DNA of 64,000 nt from Euzebya tangerina (GTDB lineage Bacteria; Actinomycetota; Nitriliruptoria; Euzebyales; Euzebyaceae): assembly GCF_003074135.1 (NCBI RefSeq), contig NZ_PPDK01000001.1, forward strand, positions 1,984,001 through 2,048,000, read 5' to 3'. Both the position numbers and the translations under genes were made by a program. Shown here piece after piece: positions 48,239 to 59,926 of this stretch (positions are counted from its first letter, which is position 1; each line of letters starts with the position of its first letter). The notes under the pieces are model-generated. The model ran no database searches and was not told the origin of the DNA. It worked only from the letters and a program-made list of their open reading frames with translations.

Positions 48239-51200
48239 ATGTCGACCGATGCAGTGACGTCAGCCCGCCGCCTGACACGCACCCACTGGCCACTGGCCCT
48301 CGCCCTGCTCATCGTCGCCATACTGGGCACCGCCGCCCAGGGTGCTGACCCCGAGGCGTCGGAGCCCGGTCCAGATCAGCTGGGGGCCTACGACGTGGTC
48401 GTCTCGCCACAACGGGCCGAGACGCTCCGGGTCTTCGGGTACGACATCACCCGGGTGGCGCAGGCCGACCAGGACGAGGTTCGCCTCGAGGTCATCATGA
48501 CCGGTGCACAGGCTGAGGAGCTGCAGGCGGCTGGTGATGTGGTGGAGGAACGTCCTGCGGGTGACGGTCAGGGCACGACGTTCAACCAGGCAGGGGTCTT
48601 CCGACCGTGGAGCGGTCCTGGGAACCTGGCCGAGGAGGTCGACGACCTGGTCGCGGCGTACCCCGACATCACCGAGCGGATCACGATCGGTCAGAGCCTC
48701 AACGGACAGGACATCGTCGCGGTCCGCGTCACCGGGGACCCCGACGGCACCGAGATCGGTGACCTTCCCGCGGTGCTGTACCAGGCGACGCAGCACGCTC
48801 GCGAGTGGATTGCGCCCGAGGTCAATCGTCGCCTGCTGCGCTACGTCCTCGAGAACTACGACAGCGGGACGGACACCGAGATCACCGAGCTGGTCGACAC
48901 CCGCGATCTGTACTTCATCGTCGTGGCCAACCCCGATGGCTACGACTGGACCTTCACGCCGGGCAACCGGCTGTGGCGCAAGAACCTGCAGGACAACAAC
49001 GGCGACGGCAGCATCACCGCCGATGCGGATGGTGTCGACCTGAACCGCAACTGGCCCTACCAGTGGGGGTACGACAACGAGGGCTCCTCGCCCGATCCGG
49101 CCGACGCCACCTACCGGGGGACGGCCCCTGGCTCAGAGCCGGAGATCCAAGCCCTCGATGCCTTCATCGGCGAGATCAGTCCGGCCTTCCTCGTCGACTA
49201 CCACTCCGCTGCCGAGCTCATCCTGTACGGCGCCGGATCCCAGGTCGCAACGCCGACACCGGACGACGTGATCCTCGAGGCGCTGGCCGGCGACGACGCA
49301 AAGCCCGCCGTTGAGGGGTATGACCCCGACCTGTCCGCTGAGCTCTACATCACCAACGGCGCCGCGACGGAGAACGCGCAGAACGTCCACGGCGCCCTCG
49401 CCTACACCCCGGAGCTCTCCACGTGTCAGACCGTGGCGCCCGACCCGCAGAACTGCCAGAGCGTGTTCAACTTCCCCGACGACGAGGCCCTCATCCAAGC
49501 CGAGTTCGAGAAGAACATCGAGTTCGCCCTCGACCTGGCCCGCAGCGCGGACGACCCCTACGAGCCGGACAGCCACATCGGCAACACGGCCGACGACTTC
49601 CAGATCGATCCGTTCGAGGAGGCCCACAGCGGCACCACCGAGGTCGCAGCGATCATCAGCCGTCAGATCGAGGCCCCCGAGGTCAACTGGTCGGTGGGCG
49701 GTGGCGCCACCCAGACCGCCGCGACGACCGAGTGGGACGGCGGCGAGCGGTACGGCGCCGACTTCGACCGCTACTACCGTGAGGTGCGCGGGACCGTGAC
49801 CGGCGCGGCGCCCGGCGACTCGGTCGAGGTGTGGTTCAGCGGCAACGGCGCGGAGTCGGAGCGCTTCACCTACACGGTGAGCACCGAGCCGAGCAACGTA
49901 CTCGTCGTCGCCAACGAGGACTACGACGGCTTCAACCCCGAGCAGCCGGACGTCGACGCGCCGCAGTACGCGCAGATCTACGTCGATGCGCTGGAAGCGG
50001 CGTCGTACTCCGCCGAGGTGTGGGACCTCGACAGCCAGGGTGTCCCGCACCACCTGGGCGTGCTCGCCCACTACGACGCAGTGATCTGGTACTCGGGACA
50101 GAACCGCCTGACCCAGGCGGCAGACGACACCGGCTTCGGCGGCGACGCCCTGGTCGATGAGTCGATGGTCGAGTTGACGGTCAGCCTGCGCGACTACCTC
50201 AACGAGGGCGGGAAGGTCATGAACACCGGTGAGTTCGCCGGCTACTTCGGCCTCGCCGGCCAGGTCGGCTTCGGCGGAGCACTGGTCGCTGACAACGGCG
50301 ACATCACGTCGACCTGCACCGACCCCAACACGTGTCTGCTCTACTCCGACGACTTCCACCAGTACTACCTGGGGGCGTGGAACCGCGTGAACGAGCGGCC
50401 GGCAACCGCCGTGATCGGCACCGCAGGCGCGCTGGCCGACAGCCTGCTCGAGTTGGCCGATGAGCCCAGCCCGCAGGATGCGGCCGGTGAGTTCGTCGTG
50501 ACCTCCGACATCCTGCCGGCAGACGAGTTCCCCCTGTTCGCCTCCGAGACGATCGCCCGCTACGGCGATCTCCCCGGTGTTCAGGGTCCCTTCGCACCGC
50601 TGGACAGCGACTTCTACGTCGGCGTCCCCGCGACCAACCTGGCGTACAACCGCGTGACCCGGACCATCGATCTCACCGGGGTCACGGCCGGGGAGGCCCC
50701 GACCCTGACCTTCGCGACCTCCTACGACGTGGAGGCGGCCTACGACTTCTTCGCGGTCGAGGCCCGAACGGATGGTGGCAACGACTGGACGACCCTGCCG
50801 GACGCCAACGGCAGCACCGTCCAGGGCCCGCTGTCGGTCTGCACCGACGGGCTGTGGGACGTCCACCCGTTCATCTTCGACCACTATGTCGACGGCGCGT
50901 GCAACCCGACCGGTCCGACCGGTGAGTTCCACGCCTTCAACGGCAACTCCGGAGGGTACGTCGACGCGTCCTTCGATCTCTCCGCCTACGCCGGCTCCGT
51001 CGTCGAGGTCTCGCTGGCCTACATCTCGGACGTCGGCCTGACCAACACCGGGGTTGTCGTCGACGACGTCGAGATCGTGGTCGATGGTGATGTCATCGAG
51101 TCGGAGGGCTTCGAGGACGGTTTAGGCGAGTGGGCGGCGACGCCACCGCCGGCTGGGTCGCCCGATCCCACCATCAACTGGGAGCGCACCGAGTCGATCC

Positions 51201-52537
51201 TCCCGACGCTCTCGGCGGGGATCGCGACCGAGGACACGATCTTCCTGCCCTGGGGCCTCGAGGCGATCGGGTCCACGCAGGCCCGCAACGCCGCGTTCCT
51301 GCGACTGGTCGACGATCTGGTCGGCCTCGATCGCCCAAGTGCCGTCGCCTCGGTGACGGCCAGCATCGACGGCGACGCCGTCCTCGCCGAGTTCGAGGTC
51401 GGGGCCAACTTCGATCAGTCGGCCGGCTACCGAGCGACGGCCTACGCCGACGGCGAACCCGTCGCCCAGGTCGAGGTCGAGGGTTCGCCGGCTCGGCTCG
51501 AGGGCATCGAGCCCGGCACCTACGTCGAGGTGGGAGTGGCGCCGTTCGTGAACGATGTGGTGGGCGAGCAGGTGCTGTCCGAGGAGATCTTCTTCTCACC
51601 GGAACAGCCTGACGGGATCACCAGGATCGGCGGCGGGGACCGCATTGCGGGCGCCATCGAGGTGTGTCAGTACCTGGTGCCGGACTACACGCAGGCGCGA
51701 CGGGTCGTCCTGGCTCGTGACGATGCGTTCGCCGACGCGTTGGCCGGGTCACCGCTGGCCGGACCTGATGCCTGCATCCTGTTCACCGAGGGTGGGCCGG
51801 ACGCCGAGTTGAACGCCGACGTGGCGGCTGAGATCGACCGGGTCTTGGAGGCCGGTGACGATGTCTTCGTGCTGGGCGGCACCGAGGCCGTCTCGACGGC
51901 GGTCTCGGACGCTCTTGCTGCTGCCGGGTACGACGTCGAGCGCTTCGCCGGGGAGACCCGCTTCGAGACCGCCGGGCTGATCGCGCAGTACGTCCATGCG
52001 CTTAACCCGGGGGCCGAGGCACTGGTTGCCTACGGCTACAACTGGCCTGACGCGCTGGTCGGCGGTGCCTACGCAGCTCGGACGGGTGTGCCGATCGTGC
52101 TCAGCGAGACCGCATCACTGCATCCCGCGGCCGCCACCTTCATGGTGAACGCCGAGATCGAAGCAGCGACGCTGCTGGGTGGAACCGCGGTGCTGGCCGA
52201 CGACGTGCTCGACGCCGTGCCTGGCGGGGTGCGGGTCGCCGGGTCCAATCGGATGGGCACCGCTGCCGCCATCGCGCAGGAGCTCTGGCCCGCCTTCACC
52301 AACGGCGAAGGTGCCGTGTTCATCAACGCCGAGGCCGACGACGCGTGGGTGTTCGCCCTGGCTGCGGCACCGCTGTCCGCTGCGGCGGGCGAGCCACAGC
52401 TCGGGGTGCGAGCCGACGAGATCCCCACGGAGACCGTGCCGTTGCTCGAGGTGCTCCGGCGCGGCCAGATCATCGGCGACAGCTCCCACATCGACGAGGC
52501 CGTCGAGGGCGCACTCCAGGCAGCGATCGAGGGCTGA
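48239..52537 (+). CDS. secreted M14 zinc carboxypeptidase with cell-wall-binding type 2 repeats
   Basis: A 1432-residue secreted protease (N-terminal signal helix about 16-34). The M14 domain (about 120-430) keeps its zinc ligands: His186 and Glu189 in QHAREWIAPEV and His322 in VDYHSAAEL; Arg/Asn in DLNRNWPY; and the catalytic Glu392 in YTPELST. A long region with immune-inhibitor-A-like and beta modules follows. Three cell-wall-binding type 2 repeats end the protein (about 1120-1420; RIGGGDRIAGAIEV, FVLGGTEAVSTAVSD, LLGGTAVLADDVL), which should hold it at the wall. Codon 962 (51122-51124) is TTA, a very rare codon here. GGAGGAC lies just before the ATG. Confidence 0.88.
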   Translation: MSTDAVTSARRLTRTHWPLALALLIVAILGTAAQGADPEASEPGPDQLGAYDVVVSPQRAETLRVFGYDITRVAQADQDEVRLEVIMTGAQAEELQAAGDVVEERPAGDGQGTTFNQAGVFRPWSGPGNLAEEVDDLVAAYPDITERITIGQSLNGQDIVAVRVTGDPDGTEIGDLPAVLYQATQHAREWIAPEVNRRLLRYVLENYDSGTDTEITELVDTRDLYFIVVANPDGYDWTFTPGNRLWRKNLQDNNGDGSITADADGVDLNRNWPYQWGYDNEGSSPDPADATYRGTAPGSEPEIQALDAFIGEISPAFLVDYHSAAELILYGAGSQVATPTPDDVILEALAGDDAKPAVEGYDPDLSAELYITNGAATENAQNVHGALAYTPELSTCQTVAPDPQNCQSVFNFPDDEALIQAEFEKNIEFALDLARSADDPYEPDSHIGNTADDFQIDPFEEAHSGTTEVAAIISRQIEAPEVNWSVGGGATQTAATTEWDGGERYGADFDRYYREVRGTVTGAAPGDSVEVWFSGNGAESERFTYTVSTEPSNVLVVANEDYDGFNPEQPDVDAPQYAQIYVDALEAASYSAEVWDLDSQGVPHHLGVLAHYDAVIWYSGQNRLTQAADDTGFGGDALVDESMVELTVSLRDYLNEGGKVMNTGEFAGYFGLAGQVGFGGALVADNGDITSTCTDPNTCLLYSDDFHQYYLGAWNRVNERPATAVIGTAGALADSLLELADEPSPQDAAGEFVVTSDILPADEFPLFASETIARYGDLPGVQGPFAPLDSDFYVGVPATNLAYNRVTRTIDLTGVTAGEAPTLTFATSYDVEAAYDFFAVEARTDGGNDWTTLPDANGSTVQGPLSVCTDGLWDVHPFIFDHYVDGACNPTGPTGEFHAFNGNSGGYVDASFDLSAYAGSVVEVSLAYISDVGLTNTGVVVDDVEIVVDGDVIESEGFEDGLGEWAATPPPAGSPDPTINWERTESILPTLSAGIATEDTIFLPWGLEAIGSTQARNAAFLRLVDDLVGLDRPSAVASVTASIDGDAVLAEFEVGANFDQSAGYRATAYADGEPVAQVEVEGSPARLEGIEPGTYVEVGVAPFVNDVVGEQVLSEEIFFSPEQPDGITRIGGGDRIAGAIEVCQYLVPDYTQARRVVLARDDAFADALAGSPLAGPDACILFTEGGPDAELNADVAAEIDRVLEAGDDVFVLGGTEAVSTAVSDALAAAGYDVERFAGETRFETAGLIAQYVHALNPGAEALVAYGYNWPDALVGGAYAARTGVPIVLSETASLHPAAATFMVNAEIEAATLLGGTAVLADDVLDAVPGGVRVAGSNRMGTAAAIAQELWPAFTNGEGAVFINAEADDAWVFALAAAPLSAAAGEPQLGVRADEIPTETVPLLEVLRRGQIIGDSSHIDEAVEGALQAAIEG

Positions 52538-53188: not shown

Positions 53189-54685
53189 TCAGGCCAGGAA
53201 AACCGATCGAGCCACGATGACCAGGCCCCCGATCACGATCAGGGAGGAGGTGGCGACGGGGAGGGCCGCGGACACCCGAGCCCACGTCGTGCTCTCCAGA
53301 CGTTCCATGACCCGGTAGCGAACGCGATGCAGGAGGTAGCCGGCCCCGACGAGCGCCAACGCCATCCCGACCCCGTAGGCGATGACCAGGATCACGCCGA
53401 ACCAGGTCCGACCCAGGGCGACGCCGCCCAGGAGGACCAGCAGTGCAGAGGGCGAGGGGACCATCCCTCCGGCCAGTCCCGGCACCACCAGCATGCGCCA
53501 GCTCGGTTCCGAGGACCGCTGACCGGTGTGGCTGTGGTCGTGATCATGACCGTGATCGTGGTCATGACCGTGGCCGTGGTCGTGGTGGTGGTCGTGGCTG
53601 TGCCCACGGTTGCGTAGCGCCCGGTACAGCAGCAACAGGCCGAGGCCAGCGAACAGCGCGCCGCCGATGGCACCCAGGACCGGATACAGCGACTCGGGAG
53701 CCACCGTGGCGGAGGTCTGCACGACCAAGCCGAGGAGCAGGACACCGATGGTGTGGGTGACCGCCACGGTTCCACCGAGCGCCAGGGCCTGACGGGCGTG
53801 TCCACCTTCACCCAACAGATACGCGGCGATGACGGTCTTGCCGTGCCCGGGAGCGACGGCATGTGCGGTACCGAGGAGGATGGCGAGCAGCAACGCCAGC
53901 AGGACGAAGCCGACGGTCAGGTCTTGTCGTGCGATCAGGTCGGTGTAGGACTCGACCAGCCCCGATAGGCCACCACTCGGTTCGTCTGGGACGGGCGTGA
54001 ACTCCGCGGATCGCAGAGACGCTGGTGCTGGCTCTCCCTGCGTGCTCTCCAACCGCAGGCTGGCGCTGGTGGTTCGTGATACCTCCGCGTCGGGGTACTC
54101 GCGGAGTTGGTCGGTGGCCGACTCGCTGGGCACATCGCTGGTGCCCACCGTGGTCCCGTCCCCGACCGCGAGCACCTCCCGCCATCCGGCTCGTTCCGGC
54201 ACGTACTCATCGGCGTAGTCGATCTGCGTGTCCCTCGCGATGGGGGTCTCACCGGACAGGCTGCAGGTCAGCCGCAGGGTGTCCAAGCCCGCCTCCCCCT
54301 CGGGGAAGGTGATTGCGGCCGCGTCGGCGAGGATCTCGGTCGTCGCACCGTCGGTCTCCAGAGACTGGGTGTCTGCGATTCGCCGACACTCCTCGGCCGC
54401 CCAGGTCTGCGCGCCTCCGGCGTCGGCGATGGCTGAGGCCGTCTGCTGAGTCGGGATCTCAGCCAGATCGAGGACGTAGACGACGTCGACCGCGTCGGGC
54501 TGGATCAGCAGTGTGGCCGAGGTGTTGGTCGTGAAGTTGCCCAAGGGGTGCGCTGCCGCCGGCGCGGCGAGCACCGCCAGTGCGACCAGCACCGCAATGG
54601 TCACCCGCAGCGTCCGGGAGAACCGCCGGGTGGCCGTTCCACGCATGCGTGACGTTGCCCGCCCTGGCCGGGTCAACTCACGCAT
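53189..54685 (-). CDS. NicO-type nickel/cobalt transporter with secreted N-terminal domain
   Basis: A 498-residue protein. A signal helix (about 22-45) and an extracytoplasmic domain of about 200 residues with two Cys precede six membrane helices. The transporter motif is HAVAPGHGKTVIAAYLLGE (NicO/RcnA family), followed by a His/Asp-rich loop (about 362-385) and GLAGGMVPSPSALLVLLGG. Nickel, cobalt or a similar ion is inferred. The ATG at 54685 has GGAGG 7 bases upstream; it lies in copy A of the 49-bp repeat. A GTG at 54736 overlaps the TPR stop (GTGA), and an ATG at 54646 is another choice. Confidence 0.83.
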   Translation of the reverse strand: MRELTRPGRATSRMRGTATRRFSRTLRVTIAVLVALAVLAAPAAAHPLGNFTTNTSATLLIQPDAVDVVYVLDLAEIPTQQTASAIADAGGAQTWAAEECRRIADTQSLETDGATTEILADAAAITFPEGEAGLDTLRLTCSLSGETPIARDTQIDYADEYVPERAGWREVLAVGDGTTVGTSDVPSESATDQLREYPDAEVSRTTSASLRLESTQGEPAPASLRSAEFTPVPDEPSGGLSGLVESYTDLIARQDLTVGFVLLALLLAILLGTAHAVAPGHGKTVIAAYLLGEGGHARQALALGGTVAVTHTIGVLLLGLVVQTSATVAPESLYPVLGAIGGALFAGLGLLLLYRALRNRGHSHDHHHDHGHGHDHDHGHDHDHSHTGQRSSEPSWRMLVVPGLAGGMVPSPSALLVLLGGVALGRTWFGVILVIAYGVGMALALVGAGYLLHRVRYRVMERLESTTWARVSAALPVATSSLIVIGGLVIVARSVFLA

Positions 54686-54689
54686 GCGT
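54641..54689. repeat. 49-bp palindromic repeat, copy A
   Basis: The ends are two perfect ACGCATGCGT palindromes (54641-54650, 54680-54689), each extended as ACGCATGCGTGA and TCACGCATGCGT, so the whole can fold. It contains two in-frame ATGs for the NicO-type gene. It aligns to copies at 3426 and 13038. Confidence 0.65.
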
Positions 54690-54732
54690 CGGCCTCCGAC
54701 GGCGCCGGATCGGACCGGCTCACGGGAGAGAC

Positions 54733-56025
54733 TCACGGGAGGTAGAGGTCACGTGCGACGGGGTTGCGGGAGAGGACGGCGGGGTCCTCCTCGCCCAGGA
54801 CTTCGGCCATGCGCAGCTCATGGGCCGTGTCGATCGTCCCCAACCGACTGGCCCGCTCTGCCAGTTCTCGCGCCCGTTCCACGTGGCCGTCCTGGTGGAG
54901 CGCCCACGCCAGCGACCCGGCGGCGAACACGTTGTCCGGTCGGGCCTCATATGCTTCCTGCGCCAGCTCGACCGCAACCGCCGGGTCGCCGAAGGAGGCC
55001 TCGAACAGCGCAAGCTCGAGGTCGACCGTCTGGCCGGCTTCCTGCTGCAGCGTGGCGATGGTCCGCGCGAGCGCAACGGTCTCGGCCAGACCCTCGTCGT
55101 CACCAGCTCGTTCCTGCACCTCGGCCAGGGCGGTCACGACCGCTGGGACCGGGGCACGCAGGGACAGATCGCTGAGGATGTCGGTGGCCCGATCCAGGTC
55201 ACCCCTGGCGGCGGTGATCCGCGCCAGGCCAGCGGCCGCAGCCGGCGTTTGGGCACGGACGTAGGCCTCTTCGGCTTGCTCCAGGTCACCACGGTGCAAG
55301 AGCAGGTCGCCCAGCAACGCGCTGACCGAACTGGACGTCGAGGCACGCTCCCCCGCGATGGTCACGGCTGCGGCCGTGCCGCCTCCGGCAGTCTCTGCCT
55401 GGCGCATGGCCACGATGGCCCCGTCCAGGTCGCCGTTCAGCTGTCGCAGGTACGAGGCACGTGCCAGCGCCGGAAGATCCGGCCGCAGGTCGAGCATCCG
55501 TTGCACGGAGTCAGCAGCCTCGTCGTAGGAACCGAGCTCGACCTGGGCGTCGGTCAGCACGCCGTAGGCGTCGGCGGTGTCAGGCAGCTCGGCAACGGCC
55601 TGCTGCCCCAGCTCGAGGGCTTGGGTGAAGTCGTGCAGGCTCAGGGTCAGCTGGCCTTGGGCGATGGTGGTGAACGGGTCGGCGGGATCGAGTTCCGCGG
55701 CGCGGTCGAAGGCCTCCTCGGCGACGGCGTACCACGCAGGGTCGGCCGTTGCGATCGCCTGATTGGTGGCGGCGACGCCGAGCGCCTGCCAGTTGGCGGC
55801 ATCGTCCGGGTCCTGCTCAGCTGCGCGCTGGAGGTCTCGGACGGCGTCGTCAGCGGGCAGTGCGATGTCGGGCAGCGGTGTGCTCGGGGTGTCGTCGTAG
55901 GTCAGGAACACGCCGACGGCCAACCCGACGATGGCGGCGACGACGAGCGCTGTGACGGCAGGAGCCCACGATGGGGAGGGACGTGTGTCCCTCCCCATCG
56001 CGGCGGTGGCTACTAAGTTGCTCAC
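54733..56025 (-). CDS. membrane-anchored tetratricopeptide-repeat protein
   Basis: A 430-residue protein with one N-terminal membrane helix (AVTALVVAAIVGLAVGVFLT, about 23-43) and about eight TPR-like helix pairs (for example WYAVAEEAFDRAAELDPADP, VELAQEAYEARPDNVFAAGS). TPR domains scaffold protein partners; here they would lie outside the membrane. The GTG at 56025 is used, and an ATG at 55998 is possible. It sits 21 bases after the DUF4331 gene, and its stop overlaps a GTG of the NicO gene. Confidence 0.8.
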   Translation of the reverse strand: MSNLVATAAMGRDTRPSPSWAPAVTALVVAAIVGLAVGVFLTYDDTPSTPLPDIALPADDAVRDLQRAAEQDPDDAANWQALGVAATNQAIATADPAWYAVAEEAFDRAAELDPADPFTTIAQGQLTLSLHDFTQALELGQQAVAELPDTADAYGVLTDAQVELGSYDEAADSVQRMLDLRPDLPALARASYLRQLNGDLDGAIVAMRQAETAGGGTAAAVTIAGERASTSSSVSALLGDLLLHRGDLEQAEEAYVRAQTPAAAAGLARITAARGDLDRATDILSDLSLRAPVPAVVTALAEVQERAGDDEGLAETVALARTIATLQQEAGQTVDLELALFEASFGDPAVAVELAQEAYEARPDNVFAAGSLAWALHQDGHVERARELAERASRLGTIDTAHELRMAEVLGEEDPAVLSRNPVARDLYLP

Positions 56026-56046
56026 CGGATGATGGTAGGCCGAGGC

Positions 56047-57711
56047 CTACAGGTTGTTGCCCAAGGGATCTTCCTGCGGCGAGTAGTAGCCGCTGTGCGG
56101 CTGCGCCAGGTACGGGAAGGTGTCCAGGAACGGCAGGTCGTTGGTCAACGTCCCATCGCTCAGCGGGGCAACGGTTGCCGGGTCGACGCCCGGAACGGTC
56201 GCGCCGGCCAGGGCCAGCAGGGTGATGTCGGTCACGTCGTCGTACAGACGACGGCCGTTCGGGAAGCCGTCGGCCTCCGCGCCCTCACCCAGGAAGTCGG
56301 TCCCGTTGTCTCCGCCCAGCACACCAAGACGGTTGACGTCGTTGGGGTTGGAGGATGACGGGGGCACCGCGGTGTTCAGCCGGATCATCTCGGCGGGGAC
56401 GCCGCCGGGGATCTGGTTGACGTTGTCGCAGTCGTCGGCCGTCGAGTCGAGGCAGGGCTCGCCCTCGGCGGTGATGCCGACACCGGTCAGGTAGATGGCG
56501 GAGAGGTCCACACGTCCGACCTCGTCACCGACGGCAGCAGAGACGGCCTCGGCGCTGTAGTGGGTGAAAGCGCCCTCGTCCGGTCCGTCTTCGCCGTCGG
56601 TGTCGAAGGCGTCGGGGTACAGGACGGGGAACAGGTCGAGGAGCTCAGGGTCGGTCACGACGGGGACAGCACCCTCGTCGGAGTTCGCACCGGAGGCACG
56701 CTCGATGGTCACGCCAGCGAGTGCGCCGGCGTCCTGGCTGGGTGAGAGGGTGTTGAAGGTGTCCTTCAGACCCAAGGGGATGACGGCCTCGTTGACCAGG
56801 GGCATGCCCAGGCGGGAGACCTGACGGTAGGGACCGGTGTAGATCGGGTCGGCGGAGTTGCCGGCCGAGAACGTCCGGGTCTGACGACGGGATGCGGTTG
56901 CCCACACACCGACGACGGGCTGGTCCTCGGTTGCGCCGAGGTAGCTGGAGGGCACCTCAACAGCGATGGAGTGGGTGTTGCGTCCGGCGACGGAGTCGAT
57001 TGCCGACTCGGTCGGTGAGTCGTTGCCGACCAGGTGCAGACCCTCGAAGGGACGGAGGGTGCCGAGGTCGAAGACGGAGCCGAGGTCGACCCAGAACGGG
57101 TCGTCCTTCTGACCGGCGAAGGCCTGCAGGGTGCCGCCGTCCACGTCGATGGACTGGATGGCTGCATCCGAGAGGGCCGCGTAGTTGGGGGTCGAGCGTG
57201 GGCCGAGGTTGTTCGGCGGCACGACCAGGTCCTGGCCGAGCACGGTCCGCACGCCGTCCTGGACGACTGACAGGTCGTAGCTCTGACGCAGGTTCCAGGC
57301 GGCAGCGCCCTCACCCTCGAGCGCGGTGATCGGGCCGAACGCGTACAGGAAGCTGTTCGGGTCGGTCAGCGTGGTGGTGAAGTCGAACTCGAAGGTCACG
57401 TCGGCAACAGCGTCACCGTCGTTGTCCACGTTGATCTCGTAGAGGACGTCGTCGCCGAAGTTGTGGAAGTTCGGACCGGCATCGGCGTCTTGCAGTGGGA
57501 TGTAGTTGGCGATGAGGACGGTGTTGTCCGGGTTCGCCGGAGACACGAAGGCGTAGGTGTCGGTGTTGTCGGCCACGGGGTCCTCCGCGATCAGCGGCGC
57601 CTCCCGGTGACTCGATGCATCGACGGTGGACAGGGTTGTGATGGCCAGCAGGGCTGCAAGCCCGGCCGCCAGCAGCGCCCGGAAGCTCCGGGTGCGTGGT
57701 GTGGTTGTCAT
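56047..57711 (-). CDS. DUF4331 domain secreted protein
   Basis: A 554-residue secreted protein: signal peptide 1-32, then SSHREAPLIAEDPVADNTDTYAF, the hallmark of DUF4331, followed by NFGDDVLYEINVDNDGDAVADVTFEF. Asp/Asn-rich loops such as DNDGDAVAD could bind calcium. The C-terminus has GFPNGRRLYDDVTDI and LPYLAQPHSGYYSP-like ends. The domain's function is not known to me. AAGGAG with 6-base spacing fixes the ATG at 57711. It is followed by TPR and NicO-type genes. Confidence 0.87.
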   Translation of the reverse strand: MTTTPRTRSFRALLAAGLAALLAITTLSTVDASSHREAPLIAEDPVADNTDTYAFVSPANPDNTVLIANYIPLQDADAGPNFHNFGDDVLYEINVDNDGDAVADVTFEFDFTTTLTDPNSFLYAFGPITALEGEGAAAWNLRQSYDLSVVQDGVRTVLGQDLVVPPNNLGPRSTPNYAALSDAAIQSIDVDGGTLQAFAGQKDDPFWVDLGSVFDLGTLRPFEGLHLVGNDSPTESAIDSVAGRNTHSIAVEVPSSYLGATEDQPVVGVWATASRRQTRTFSAGNSADPIYTGPYRQVSRLGMPLVNEAVIPLGLKDTFNTLSPSQDAGALAGVTIERASGANSDEGAVPVVTDPELLDLFPVLYPDAFDTDGEDGPDEGAFTHYSAEAVSAAVGDEVGRVDLSAIYLTGVGITAEGEPCLDSTADDCDNVNQIPGGVPAEMIRLNTAVPPSSSNPNDVNRLGVLGGDNGTDFLGEGAEADGFPNGRRLYDDVTDITLLALAGATVPGVDPATVAPLSDGTLTNDLPFLDTFPYLAQPHSGYYSPQEDPLGNNL

Positions 57712-57767
57712 GGGTGCTCCTTCAGAACTGATGTGTGCTCGTGACTGGTGTGCTGCGTGAACCGACC

Positions 57768-58832
57768 TCACTCGTTGATCGCCGCCTCAGCGGCATCGCA
57801 GGCCGCCTGGCTCACACCAGGACCACAGATGAGCGGACGTGCCGCGCCTGTGACGTACTCGGTTGTCTCGGGCGTCAGGCTGTCGCCGTTGGCGAGCAGC
57901 ACGGCCGCGCCGTTGCCGGTCTGGACGCCAGCGGGGAAGCCGGAGGTCCACGAGGTGTCGCTCTGGGCCTCGAACAGCAGAATGCGGCTCGCGTCGGCTG
58001 CAGTCGCATTGCCGAGGGCAATGCTCATCTGCACCGCGGTCGCCCATCGGTTCGGACCGTCGATCCGGGTGACCGATGTGCCGGGCTGCTGGTCCGCGCC
58101 GTCGACGTCGGGCACGCTCAGTGCGGCCTCGACCTCATCGGCCACGCCCTCGCTTACGGCATCGGTGCCGCCCACGATCTGGACCCGCTGGATCGGCAAC
58201 TCGCCCAGTGCGGCGGCCGTGGGGCCGTCGAGCGAGTCAGTTGCGGTCAGCAGGCTGGGGGTGTTCGTCGCGGCACCGAACGGTCCGGTGACGAGCGAGT
58301 CGGCAAAGGCCTGGGTCGGGTCGGTCTCGGTGCCGAAGGCGCGAGCCAGGATCACGTCGGTTGTGGAGGGGAAGAACCGCTCCACGATCAGGACCGCGGT
58401 CTCAATCCGGGTGGGACCGCCGATCCGCTCGGTCTCAAGGCCCAAGGCCTCGAGTTCCGTGATGACCACGGGGCCTACGGCGTCCACGCCGCCGAGCACG
58501 ATGGCGCTGGATGAGCCGAGGCGGGTGATCTCCGCAGCGGTCTCCGGGCTCAGTGCGTCGGTGGCGGTCAGGAGCAGGGGAGCTTGCAGGAGTCCCTGGA
58601 CGGCACCAGAACCCAGTGCGTCGGCGAACTCGTCGTCCCTTGCGATGATGACTGTCGGTGCGCTGCCGTCGGTGAAGCTCAGCTGGCTCCACGCGATTGC
58701 TGAGGAGACGGGTGTCTCCCCGCCCTCCAATCGCGTGGTGTCCTGCGCGGACGCAGGTAGTGCCAGGGCAAGAAGCATCACCACGGCCGCGAACAGTGCG
58801 ATAGGTGCACGTGCGACCTTGTGTCTACTCAT
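57768..58832 (-). CDS. secreted protein with three cell-wall-binding type 2 repeats
   Basis: A 354-residue protein that is almost entirely wall-binding repeat: signal peptide 1-29 (ending PASAQ), then three type-2 units recognisable by RxxG, FADALGSG, and xVLGG (SSAIVLGGVDAVG; VQIVGGTDAVSEG; RIDGPNRWATAVQMS). No catalytic domain is attached. It probably acts as an S-layer-like or adaptor protein. The ATG at 58832 has GGAGG about 9 bases upstream. It lies 56 bases before DUF4331 on the same strand and diverges from the 59036 gene. Confidence 0.85.
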   Translation of the reverse strand: MSRHKVARAPIALFAAVVMLLALALPASAQDTTRLEGGETPVSSAIAWSQLSFTDGSAPTVIIARDDEFADALGSGAVQGLLQAPLLLTATDALSPETAAEITRLGSSSAIVLGGVDAVGPVVITELEALGLETERIGGPTRIETAVLIVERFFPSTTDVILARAFGTETDPTQAFADSLVTGPFGAATNTPSLLTATDSLDGPTAAALGELPIQRVQIVGGTDAVSEGVADEVEAALSVPDVDGADQQPGTSVTRIDGPNRWATAVQMSIALGNATAADASRILLFEAQSDTSWTSGFPAGVQTGNGAAVLLANGDSLTPETTEYVTGAARPLICGPGVSQAACDAAEAAINE

Positions 58833-59035: not shown

Positions 59036-59926
59036 TTGGTTGGAACGCGACTGTCATCACGTGGCCTGGTGATCCTTGCCCTGCTGGCCGGTCTCGCCAT
59101 CGGTGTTGCCGCGGCTCTGGTCATCACAGGGTCCGGAGGGGACTCCGACACCCCTGCCGCCACCTCTGAGACCACTCGGGACGGCGATCCCGAGGCGCTC
59201 GCCGAGCTGCCCGAACCCAGAGAGCCGGTGACGCCCGAGGCGGCCGACGATCCGGAGTCTGCGCTGGCCAGCTTCCTGACCCTCGAGGCAGCAGGGGAGT
59301 GGGAGGCGTCCTACGAATTCCTGACCGACGATCTCCGGTCGACCACCTACCCGAGCCCCGCCGAGTGGGTCAGCGCCCACGCCGACTTCCCCACCGTGAC
59401 CGGCTACCGGATCGACGACGTGACCGAGGGCGAGGACGGCACGACTGCGACGGTCGCGACGTTGACCGGGTTCCAGGCCGGGCTCGACCCCGTGCTCGGT
59501 TTGGTGGCCGCTCGGGGCAGATCGACCTGGCAGCTCCAGCAGGACGGGGATGTGTGGCGCGTGAACGTGGCGGAGAACACCAACACGTTCCTCTACCCGG
59601 CGTCGGACGGTGCTGAGACGACGGTGCGGCGGTGGGTGGATGCACGGGTGGCCTGCGAGGACTCCTCGGCGTTGGAGCAGGGCCTCATCGGCTCGCCGTC
59701 GTTGGCCGAGCAGCTGTGCACCGAGGAGCAGGACGGGACGGTGGGCATCGGCGACGTCGCGTCGCTGCCGGACTCAGCCGACACCTCGACGTTGGTCAGC
59801 GAGTTCGGGCCGCAGGTGTTCACCTGGGCGCGGACCGTCTCCGTCGACGCCGCGACGCCGCTGACCGCGGTGCTGGGCCCGGTCGGGGAGGAGTGGCGCG
59901 TCGTGGCGGTCCTCCCCGGGACCTGA
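59036..59926 (+). CDS. membrane-anchored extracytoplasmic protein, function unknown
   Basis: A 296-residue protein with one N-terminal helix (GLVILALLAGLAIGVAAALVIT), an acidic Pro/Glu linker (about 35-75), and a domain of about 215 residues that begins PESALASFLTLEAAGEWEASYEFL, the layout of NTF2-like or DUF4878-like lipoprotein folds, with a second half starting VRRWVDARVACEDSSALEQGL. The start is TTG with GGAGAG 5 bases upstream; no ATG gives this N-terminus. No catalytic residues are evident. Confidence 0.65.
   Translation: MVGTRLSSRGLVILALLAGLAIGVAAALVITGSGGDSDTPAATSETTRDGDPEALAELPEPREPVTPEAADDPESALASFLTLEAAGEWEASYEFLTDDLRSTTYPSPAEWVSAHADFPTVTGYRIDDVTEGEDGTTATVATLTGFQAGLDPVLGLVAARGRSTWQLQQDGDVWRVNVAENTNTFLYPASDGAETTVRRWVDARVACEDSSALEQGLIGSPSLAEQLCTEEQDGTVGIGDVASLPDSADTSTLVSEFGPQVFTWARTVSVDAATPLTAVLGPVGEEWRVVAVLPGT

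Follow-up and report, generated by a model that had tools for sequence, protein, structure and literature searches.

The window analysed here is a 64,000-nt stretch of the Euzebya tangerina genome, in which a run of four co-directional genes at 53189-58832, all read as open reading frames (ORFs) on the minus strand, encodes a CWB2 cell-wall-binding protein, a DUF4331 protein, a tetratricopeptide repeat (TPR) protein and a NicO-type permease (Table 1). The genes are separated by gaps of 56 and 21 bases and then by a 4-base stop/GTG overlap. A first-pass annotation of this DNA had described the same layout, which agrees exactly with the ORF coordinates, and its domain calls are backed by Pfam matches to CW_binding_2, DUF4331, TPR_19 and NicO. 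A scan found no sigma-70-type promoter or intrinsic terminator inside the run, which is weak evidence at 69% GC. Because such signals are uninformative here, the case for one unit rests on conservation.

Table 1 Features of the gene run and of the divergent neighbouring gene in the window.
Feature	Positions	Strand	Evidence
CWB2 cell-wall-binding protein, first gene of the run	57768-58832, ATG at 58832	-	CW_binding_2 77 bits (Pfam)
DUF4331 protein (PF14224), Sec-type signal peptide, predicted extracytoplasmic metalloprotein	56047-57711, ATG at 57711	-	420 bits
Ser-Ser-His codons at the start of mature DUF4331, predicted ATCUN motif	57607-57615	-	alignment of 135 homologues
Putative scaffold or chaperone of TPR type with a single N-terminal membrane anchor	54733-56025, GTG at 56025	-	TPR_19 64 bits
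NicO-type (RcnA-like) permease with N-terminal extracytoplasmic domain	53189-54736, start GTG 54736 or ATG 54646	-	PF03824 33 bits, PRK10019 87 bits
N-terminal anglerase-like domain, residues 1-173 of the mature NicO protein	54032-54550, His1 codon 54548-54550	-	9gce match
His/Asp-rich permease loop HSHDHHHDHGHGHDHDHGHDHDHSH	53528-53602	-	sequence reading
Conserved exported protein, no Pfam family, divergent from the run	59036-59926	+	183 bits to a profile of upstream DUF4331 neighbours

Profiles built from the window proteins were used to scan 80 DUF4331 loci from GTDB genomes and 40 more across Actinomycetota. In the second sample the TPR gene adjoins DUF4331 in 35/40 loci and NicO in 25/40, an adjacency far beyond chance. 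The DUF4331-TPR pairing also recurs in Acidobacteriota, Chloroflexota, Bacteroidota and Pseudomonadota. The order DUF4331-TPR-NicO, for which the annotation had recommended a search across genomes, does recur in several phyla, being found in Acidobacteriota, Chloroflexota and Streptomyces, while in Frankia the three genes are present but divergently arranged. The conserved unit is DUF4331-TPR-permease. The wall-binding protein, originally counted as a component of the system, is encoded next to DUF4331 solely within the order to which the window belongs (L110, L113, L117, L137) and is better described as a lineage-specific neighbour. In other lineages a sortase (L044, L047, L060) or a large exported protein, which we take to be DUF4394-like, occupies the neighbourhood in place of CWB2, so that attachment to the wall seems to be an optional, replaceable trait. 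The DUF4394-like protein precedes DUF4331 in several Acidobacteriota loci (L058, L072, L074, L076-L078, L081).

The DUF4331 protein of the window matches PF14224 over its full length (positions 1-421, cut-off 27 bits) and carries its own signal peptide, the mature chain starting at the Ser encoded at 57615 by alignment of the 135 homologues. Its AlphaFold2 (AF2) model is beta-rich (pLDDT 85, pTM 0.90). No significant solved relative was found in the PDB: there was no sequence match, the best Foldseek hit had an E value of 0.039 (prob 0.03), and the best VIA match, to Ig folds, reached Z 5.7. N-termini were counted in full-length homologues that reach profile column 1, aligned to the profile without a motif filter. 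The mature chain begins with SSH in 132 and with ASH in 3 of these 135 proteins, preceded by Ala in 109 and otherwise by Gly, Ser, Thr or the start-codon residue. In the full-length proteins devoid of a signal peptide, ATG, GTG or TTG stands immediately before SSH in 19/19, and removal of the initiator Met, which is expected before Ser, would therefore give the same mature N-terminus. A short divergent class (34-109 bits) has ADH, SDH, SHH or SNH following either the start codon or a signal peptide. In all classes the third residue is His and the second is never Pro, and the former is the sole invariant His of the family.

The amino-terminal copper- and nickel-binding (ATCUN) motif is defined as H2N-X-X-His (PMC7701195). 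All 135 mature DUF4331 N-termini have the predicted form X-X-His with a non-Pro residue at position 2, which suggests that the N-terminus is an ATCUN motif able to bind Cu or Ni. Many polar residues are invariant as well (in mature numbering D16, N17, D19, D183, R268, N275, E276, K284, R368, R412, N414, N453, R455, R456, D459 and D460) and suggest an active or binding site; the Asp and Asn among them belong to the motifs DNTD and PNGRRxxDD. A metal site in the Asp/Asn-rich loops that the annotation pointed out is not supported, the only invariant His being the one at mature position 3. A possible resemblance of the A-SSHR signal-peptide junction to sequences of Ni-assisted hydrolysis, for which the literature consulted gave no confirmation, fails for the ADH forms and was set aside.

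The conserved N-terminus could alternatively be structural, docking into the fold of a calcium-type or sugar-binding envelope protein whose linkage to permeases is incidental. The Asp/Asn-rich loops (e.g. DNDGDA) and the beta-rich model would suit such a protein, and the invariant polar residues lie far from the N-terminus in sequence. His3, however, persists in every class, even where similarity is very low, whereas positions 1 and 2 vary (S/A and S/D/H/N), and the linkage to Ni/Co permeases recurs with three families, as described next. We regard the structural explanation as improbable.

The permease of the window matches PF03824 weakly, at 33.1 bits against a gathering threshold of 27.7 and over profile positions 4-148 of 287 only, and its score with the NCBIfam RcnA-type model PRK10019 is below the curated cut-off of 195 bits, so that it is related to that family and not a member by that rule. 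In the profile alignment its homologues begin with HP[LM]G, with His1 in 59/59 and Ala as the preceding residue in 58; such a small residue is typical of signal-peptidase sites, and cleavage before His1 is predicted. In the AF2 model (pLDDT 83, pTM 0.63) most of the extracytoplasmic domain has pLDDT >90. The best PDB match of this domain is 9gce (Foldseek E 2.9e-4, prob 1.00; VIA Z 8.1, a borderline value, with 136 residues aligned at 4.1 Å), to which no match is detectable at the sequence level. The next structural matches are the zinc-binding ZrgA and PA4063. The entry 9GCE shows the Ang-1 domain of a HupE/UreJ-2 permease with Cu bound, and Ang-1 likewise has ZrgA (8F1B) as its closest match (PMC12537917). 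Anglerases carry an invariant N-terminal His after the signal peptide on an extracytoplasmic domain, as the window protein does, and are fused to a HupE/UreJ-2 (PF13795) permease, whereas the window permease is NicO. The N-terminal domain of the NicO protein is likely, on the basis of its model, a member of the anglerases. The anglerase RbAng-1a binds metal via His1 with a Kd of 74 nM for Cu(II) and 220 nM for Ni(II), and anglerases have been proposed to fish metal for the permease (PMC12537917).

Other permeases occupy the same position elsewhere. On plasmids of Pseudoalteromonas, Marinobacter adhaerens HP15, Lichenicola and a Comamonadaceae strain, DUF4331 is followed in its operon by a TPR-type gene, in most cases with a small gene in between, and then by HupE/UreJ. 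Four such proteobacterial loci (L140, L141, L146, L147) encode HupE/UreJ proteins (PF13795 153 bits in L140, 124 bits in L146) that begin with His after a signal-peptidase-like site (HQLS, HKSS, HSAS, HKAS). In Thermoleophilia a HoxN/NixA-type NiCoT lies downstream of six DUF4331 genes (L023, L025, L036, L045, L052, L057), the L023 protein matching PF03824 at 334 bits. One permease slot is thus common to three Ni/Co families, NicO (RcnA-like), HupE/UreJ and NiCoT. NiCoT and HupE/UreJ are among the Ni/Co secondary transporter families, and NiCoT and HupE import nickel (PMC2667541).

The similarity to RcnA raises the question of detoxification, in which NicO would export excess Ni or Co and DUF4331 would buffer the exported metal outside the membrane. 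The 87-bit RcnA-type match, the His-rich loop and the clustering of the Frankia EUN1f (L041) nickel permease with RcnA (PMC4531530) agree with such a role. It is nevertheless graded weaker than capture for uptake, discussed below, and appears very doubtful, as HupE/UreJ and NiCoT, importers in known cases, occupy this position too, the conserved neighbours include no recognisable regulator of the RcnR/CsoR type, and the cytosolic or Tat-linked forms of DUF4331 would be left unexplained.

Partner genes differ with the export mode of DUF4331. A small gene lies directly upstream in 19/19 full-length DUF4331 loci lacking a signal peptide and is absent in 112/112 of those with one (Fisher p 3e-23, phylogeny ignored). 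A visible twin-Arg signal is present in 17/19 of the small products; L010 reads RL and L052 is unresolved. Conversely, TPR and/or NicO genes were found beside 100/114 exported DUF4331, a count that includes both exported short-class members (L129 and the second copy in L071), vs 0/31 unexported forms (p 4e-21, phylogeny ignored). A HoxN-type NiCoT importer adjoins 6/19 of the full-length unexported forms. On the tree the latter form a single clade of Thermoleophilia, Chloroflexota and Dormibacterota, separate from the short class.

It is possible that the small twin-Arg protein is a hitchhiker export partner of DUF4331, the two leaving together by twin-arginine translocation (Tat). The small protein has a conserved C-terminal part of ~60 residues (VVAYV..GEI.VM.G.REVTVRDR.L...) and occurs at L010, L012-L015, L018, L022-L025, L030, L036, L045, L049, L052, L054, L057, L099 and L112. 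The short divergent class (L122-L135) consists of proteins of ~340-400 aa, mostly lacking a signal peptide, and has no TPR or NicO neighbours apart from the exported L129. On two plasmids, of Sulfitobacter and Jannaschia (L142, L144), the neighbours of DUF4331 are genes for type II secretion and for an A24 prepilin peptidase, a hint that it is a type II secretion substrate there. The TPR protein is presumably a scaffold or chaperone. Its identification with MamA or PrsT was dropped, as its scores lie far below the cut-offs and reflect generic TPR similarity only.

Regulators and genome content also bear on the identity of the metal. S. coelicolor Nur (3eyy) is the best-matching PDB entry for each of five Fur proteins encoded next to DUF4331 loci (L007, L015, L019, L057, L100). 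Two His that line up with His70 and His72 of Nur, presumably ligands of its nickel site, are kept in 4/5, L019 being the exception. The protein in 3EYY is the nickel regulator Nur, which represses uptake genes, and nickel sites that use the N-terminal amine are precedented in HypA, RcnR and HypB (PMC7055735). In Pseudoalteromonas and Acidobacteriota the gene immediately upstream of DUF4331 encodes an extracytoplasmic function (ECF) sigma factor, accompanied by an anti-sigma in L140 (L140 5588-6804, L051 7283-7873, L067 4161-4763). The window genome encodes urease, NiSOD and CbiM-type uptake; NiFe-hydrogenase and CobN were not found in it. Among 34 DUF4331 genomes urease is encoded in 15, NiSOD in 23 and CobN in 13. 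Ties to [NiFe]-hydrogenase, whose presence varies among DUF4331 genomes, and to cobalamin synthesis were accordingly rejected, as was an obligatory tie to urease or NiSOD. The NiFe-hydrogenase large subunits of many actinobacterial genomes contain one in-frame TGA (e.g. G131:C1:409573-411072, G185:C16:84975-86477), consistent with selenocysteine (NiFeSe) enzymes. The common theme of the DUF4331 loci is a transition metal, probably nickel.

The same architecture could instead serve copper. ATCUN sites prefer Cu(II). In addition, 9gce has Cu bound, and RbAng-1a and MmAng-2a prefer Cu(II) (PMC12537917). This preference in vitro is uninformative, however, because Cu(II) wins there for almost any N ligand (Irving-Williams); moreover, every permease family that fills the slot belongs to the Ni/Co transporters and the adjoining Fur proteins are Nur-like. 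Copper as the metal seems unlikely.

Exported metalloproteins either gain their metal outside, with the help of an exporter and a chaperone, or fold inside and leave via Tat. We tentatively favour, at somewhat less than an even chance, the reading that DUF4331, TPR and permease form a metalation module which loads DUF4331 as an extracytoplasmic metalloprotein. At the mature X-X-His N-terminus the free amine, two backbone amides and the His3 imidazole would coordinate a metal, most likely Ni(II), in square-planar geometry. Outside the membrane the permease, which is NicO here and HupE/UreJ in Proteobacteria, would display its N-terminal His1 domain, the metal would be handed among membrane channel, His1 domain and DUF4331, and the membrane-anchored TPR protein would gather the partners. 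DUF4331 lacking a signal peptide could take its metal in the cytoplasm and, in the full-length clade, be exported folded by the small, mostly Tat-signal protein. DUF4331 is assigned as the client, and TPR and His1-permease as the loading apparatus, because the N-terminus is kept in forms that fold inside and outside whereas TPR and permease accompany only the exported ones.

The strong rival is capture and uptake, the original idea of the annotation and an extension of the published anglerase model, in which secreted DUF4331 would bind scarce Ni (or Co/Cu) and pass it to the His1 anglerase domain for import by the permease, with TPR as the scaffold. The anglerase-permease model was indeed proposed for import (PMC12537917), NiCoT and HupE families import nickel (PMC2667541), Nur, whose relatives adjoin some loci, represses uptake genes (PMC7055735), and the window genome has urease and NiSOD. 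Forms of DUF4331 lacking an export signal and the short cytosolic class, however, keep the same N-terminus and could not catch outside metal. NicO resembles the exporter RcnA (PMC4531530), the window genome also has CbiM-type uptake, and a conserved fold of 420 residues, with Arg, Asn, Asp, Glu and Lys at invariant positions, exceeds the needs of a chelator. Capture for uptake is rather unlikely, and the part of the annotation that had the system capture and move metal, although possible, fits the co-occurrence pattern less well than loading of DUF4331 outside the cytoplasm. Its broader proposal of a transition-metal system in the envelope is supported by the three Ni/Co permease families, the adjoining Nur-type regulators and the invariant His3 of DUF4331 and His1 of the permease; the wall-binding component and the Asp/Asn-loop site are the parts left without support.

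Several observations weigh against metalation of DUF4331 with nickel. The affinity of ATCUN sites is higher for Cu(II) than for Ni(II), the 9gce structure was solved with copper, and unrelated Ig folds reach Z 5-6 by the VIA yardstick on which the match to it was judged. Neither TPR nor NicO was found at 14 loci of exported full-length DUF4331, partly at contig ends. The split by export mode has few independent events, because the full-length unexported forms are one clade. Nur-like regulators stand beside only 5 of about 130 loci, and the Nur box consensus TGCAA-N5-TTGCA is not enriched in the window (7 matches vs 6.5 expected). Finally, several DUF4331 genomes lack urease, NiSOD and NiFe hydrogenase alike, which means that no single known nickel enzyme has the system as its accessory.

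A bolder version of the metalation reading, which we consider unlikely, is that DUF4331 proteins are nickel (or copper) enzymes of a new class, located outside the cytoplasm and with an active site of ATCUN type at the N-terminus, into which TPR and His1-permease insert the metal, the Tat partner and NiCoT providing an alternative cytoplasmic route. Such an enzyme would extend the small set of nickel or copper enzymes and would explain nickel permeases in bacteria with no other recognised nickel enzyme. Irrespective of catalysis, a large family of at least five phyla gains a testable role, transition-metal binding via a genetically fixed N-terminus, and the newly described anglerase permeases are linked to dedicated partner proteins. 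Two export routes with one N-terminus also offer a natural experiment on where metalloproteins gain their metal.

Outside the conserved unit, the divergent gene upstream of the run is a more widely conserved DUF4331 neighbour than CWB2. The profile that its product matches was built from loci L002-L020, and its homologues adjoin DUF4331 in 8/40 sampled loci, in Acidimicrobiia, where the gene sits directly upstream of DUF4331, and in the window's order. Near the run, at 48239-52537, the window encodes a further wall-binding protein, a large M14 zinc carboxypeptidase with an InhA-like MAM domain and three CWB2 stretches.

As far as the literature searched shows, the DUF4331-TPR-permease system is undescribed. 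DUF4331 itself is not mentioned there, which is weak evidence since two other DUF names are also scarce. As with exported metalloproteins in general, the export mode of DUF4331 appears, from gene content, to track its partners, TPR/NicO in one case and a Tat-signal protein in the other. The system shares with the anglerases (Ang-1/Ang-2 fused to HupE/UreJ-2; Franco Cairo et al. 2025, PMC12537917; 9GCE) an extracytoplasmic domain with invariant His1 joined to a Ni-type permease. It differs in that the domain is fused to NicO (RcnA-like) and has dedicated DUF4331 and TPR partners; neither NicO nor tetratricopeptide is mentioned in the anglerase paper. With E. coli RcnA, NiCoT (HoxN/NixA) and HupE/UreJ, the window NicO has in common the NicO membrane part, the HAxxPGHGKT motif and the His-rich loop, to which it adds a His1 domain of ~170 residues and an operon with DUF4331 and TPR. 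Known ATCUN proteins and peptides such as serum albumin and histatins (PMC7701195) likewise have X-X-His with a non-Pro position 2. The predicted ATCUN-type N-terminus of DUF4331 would be new, being unreported in the literature searched, and differs from these in belonging to a large bacterial family that keeps the motif whether signal peptidase or the position of the start codon creates it.

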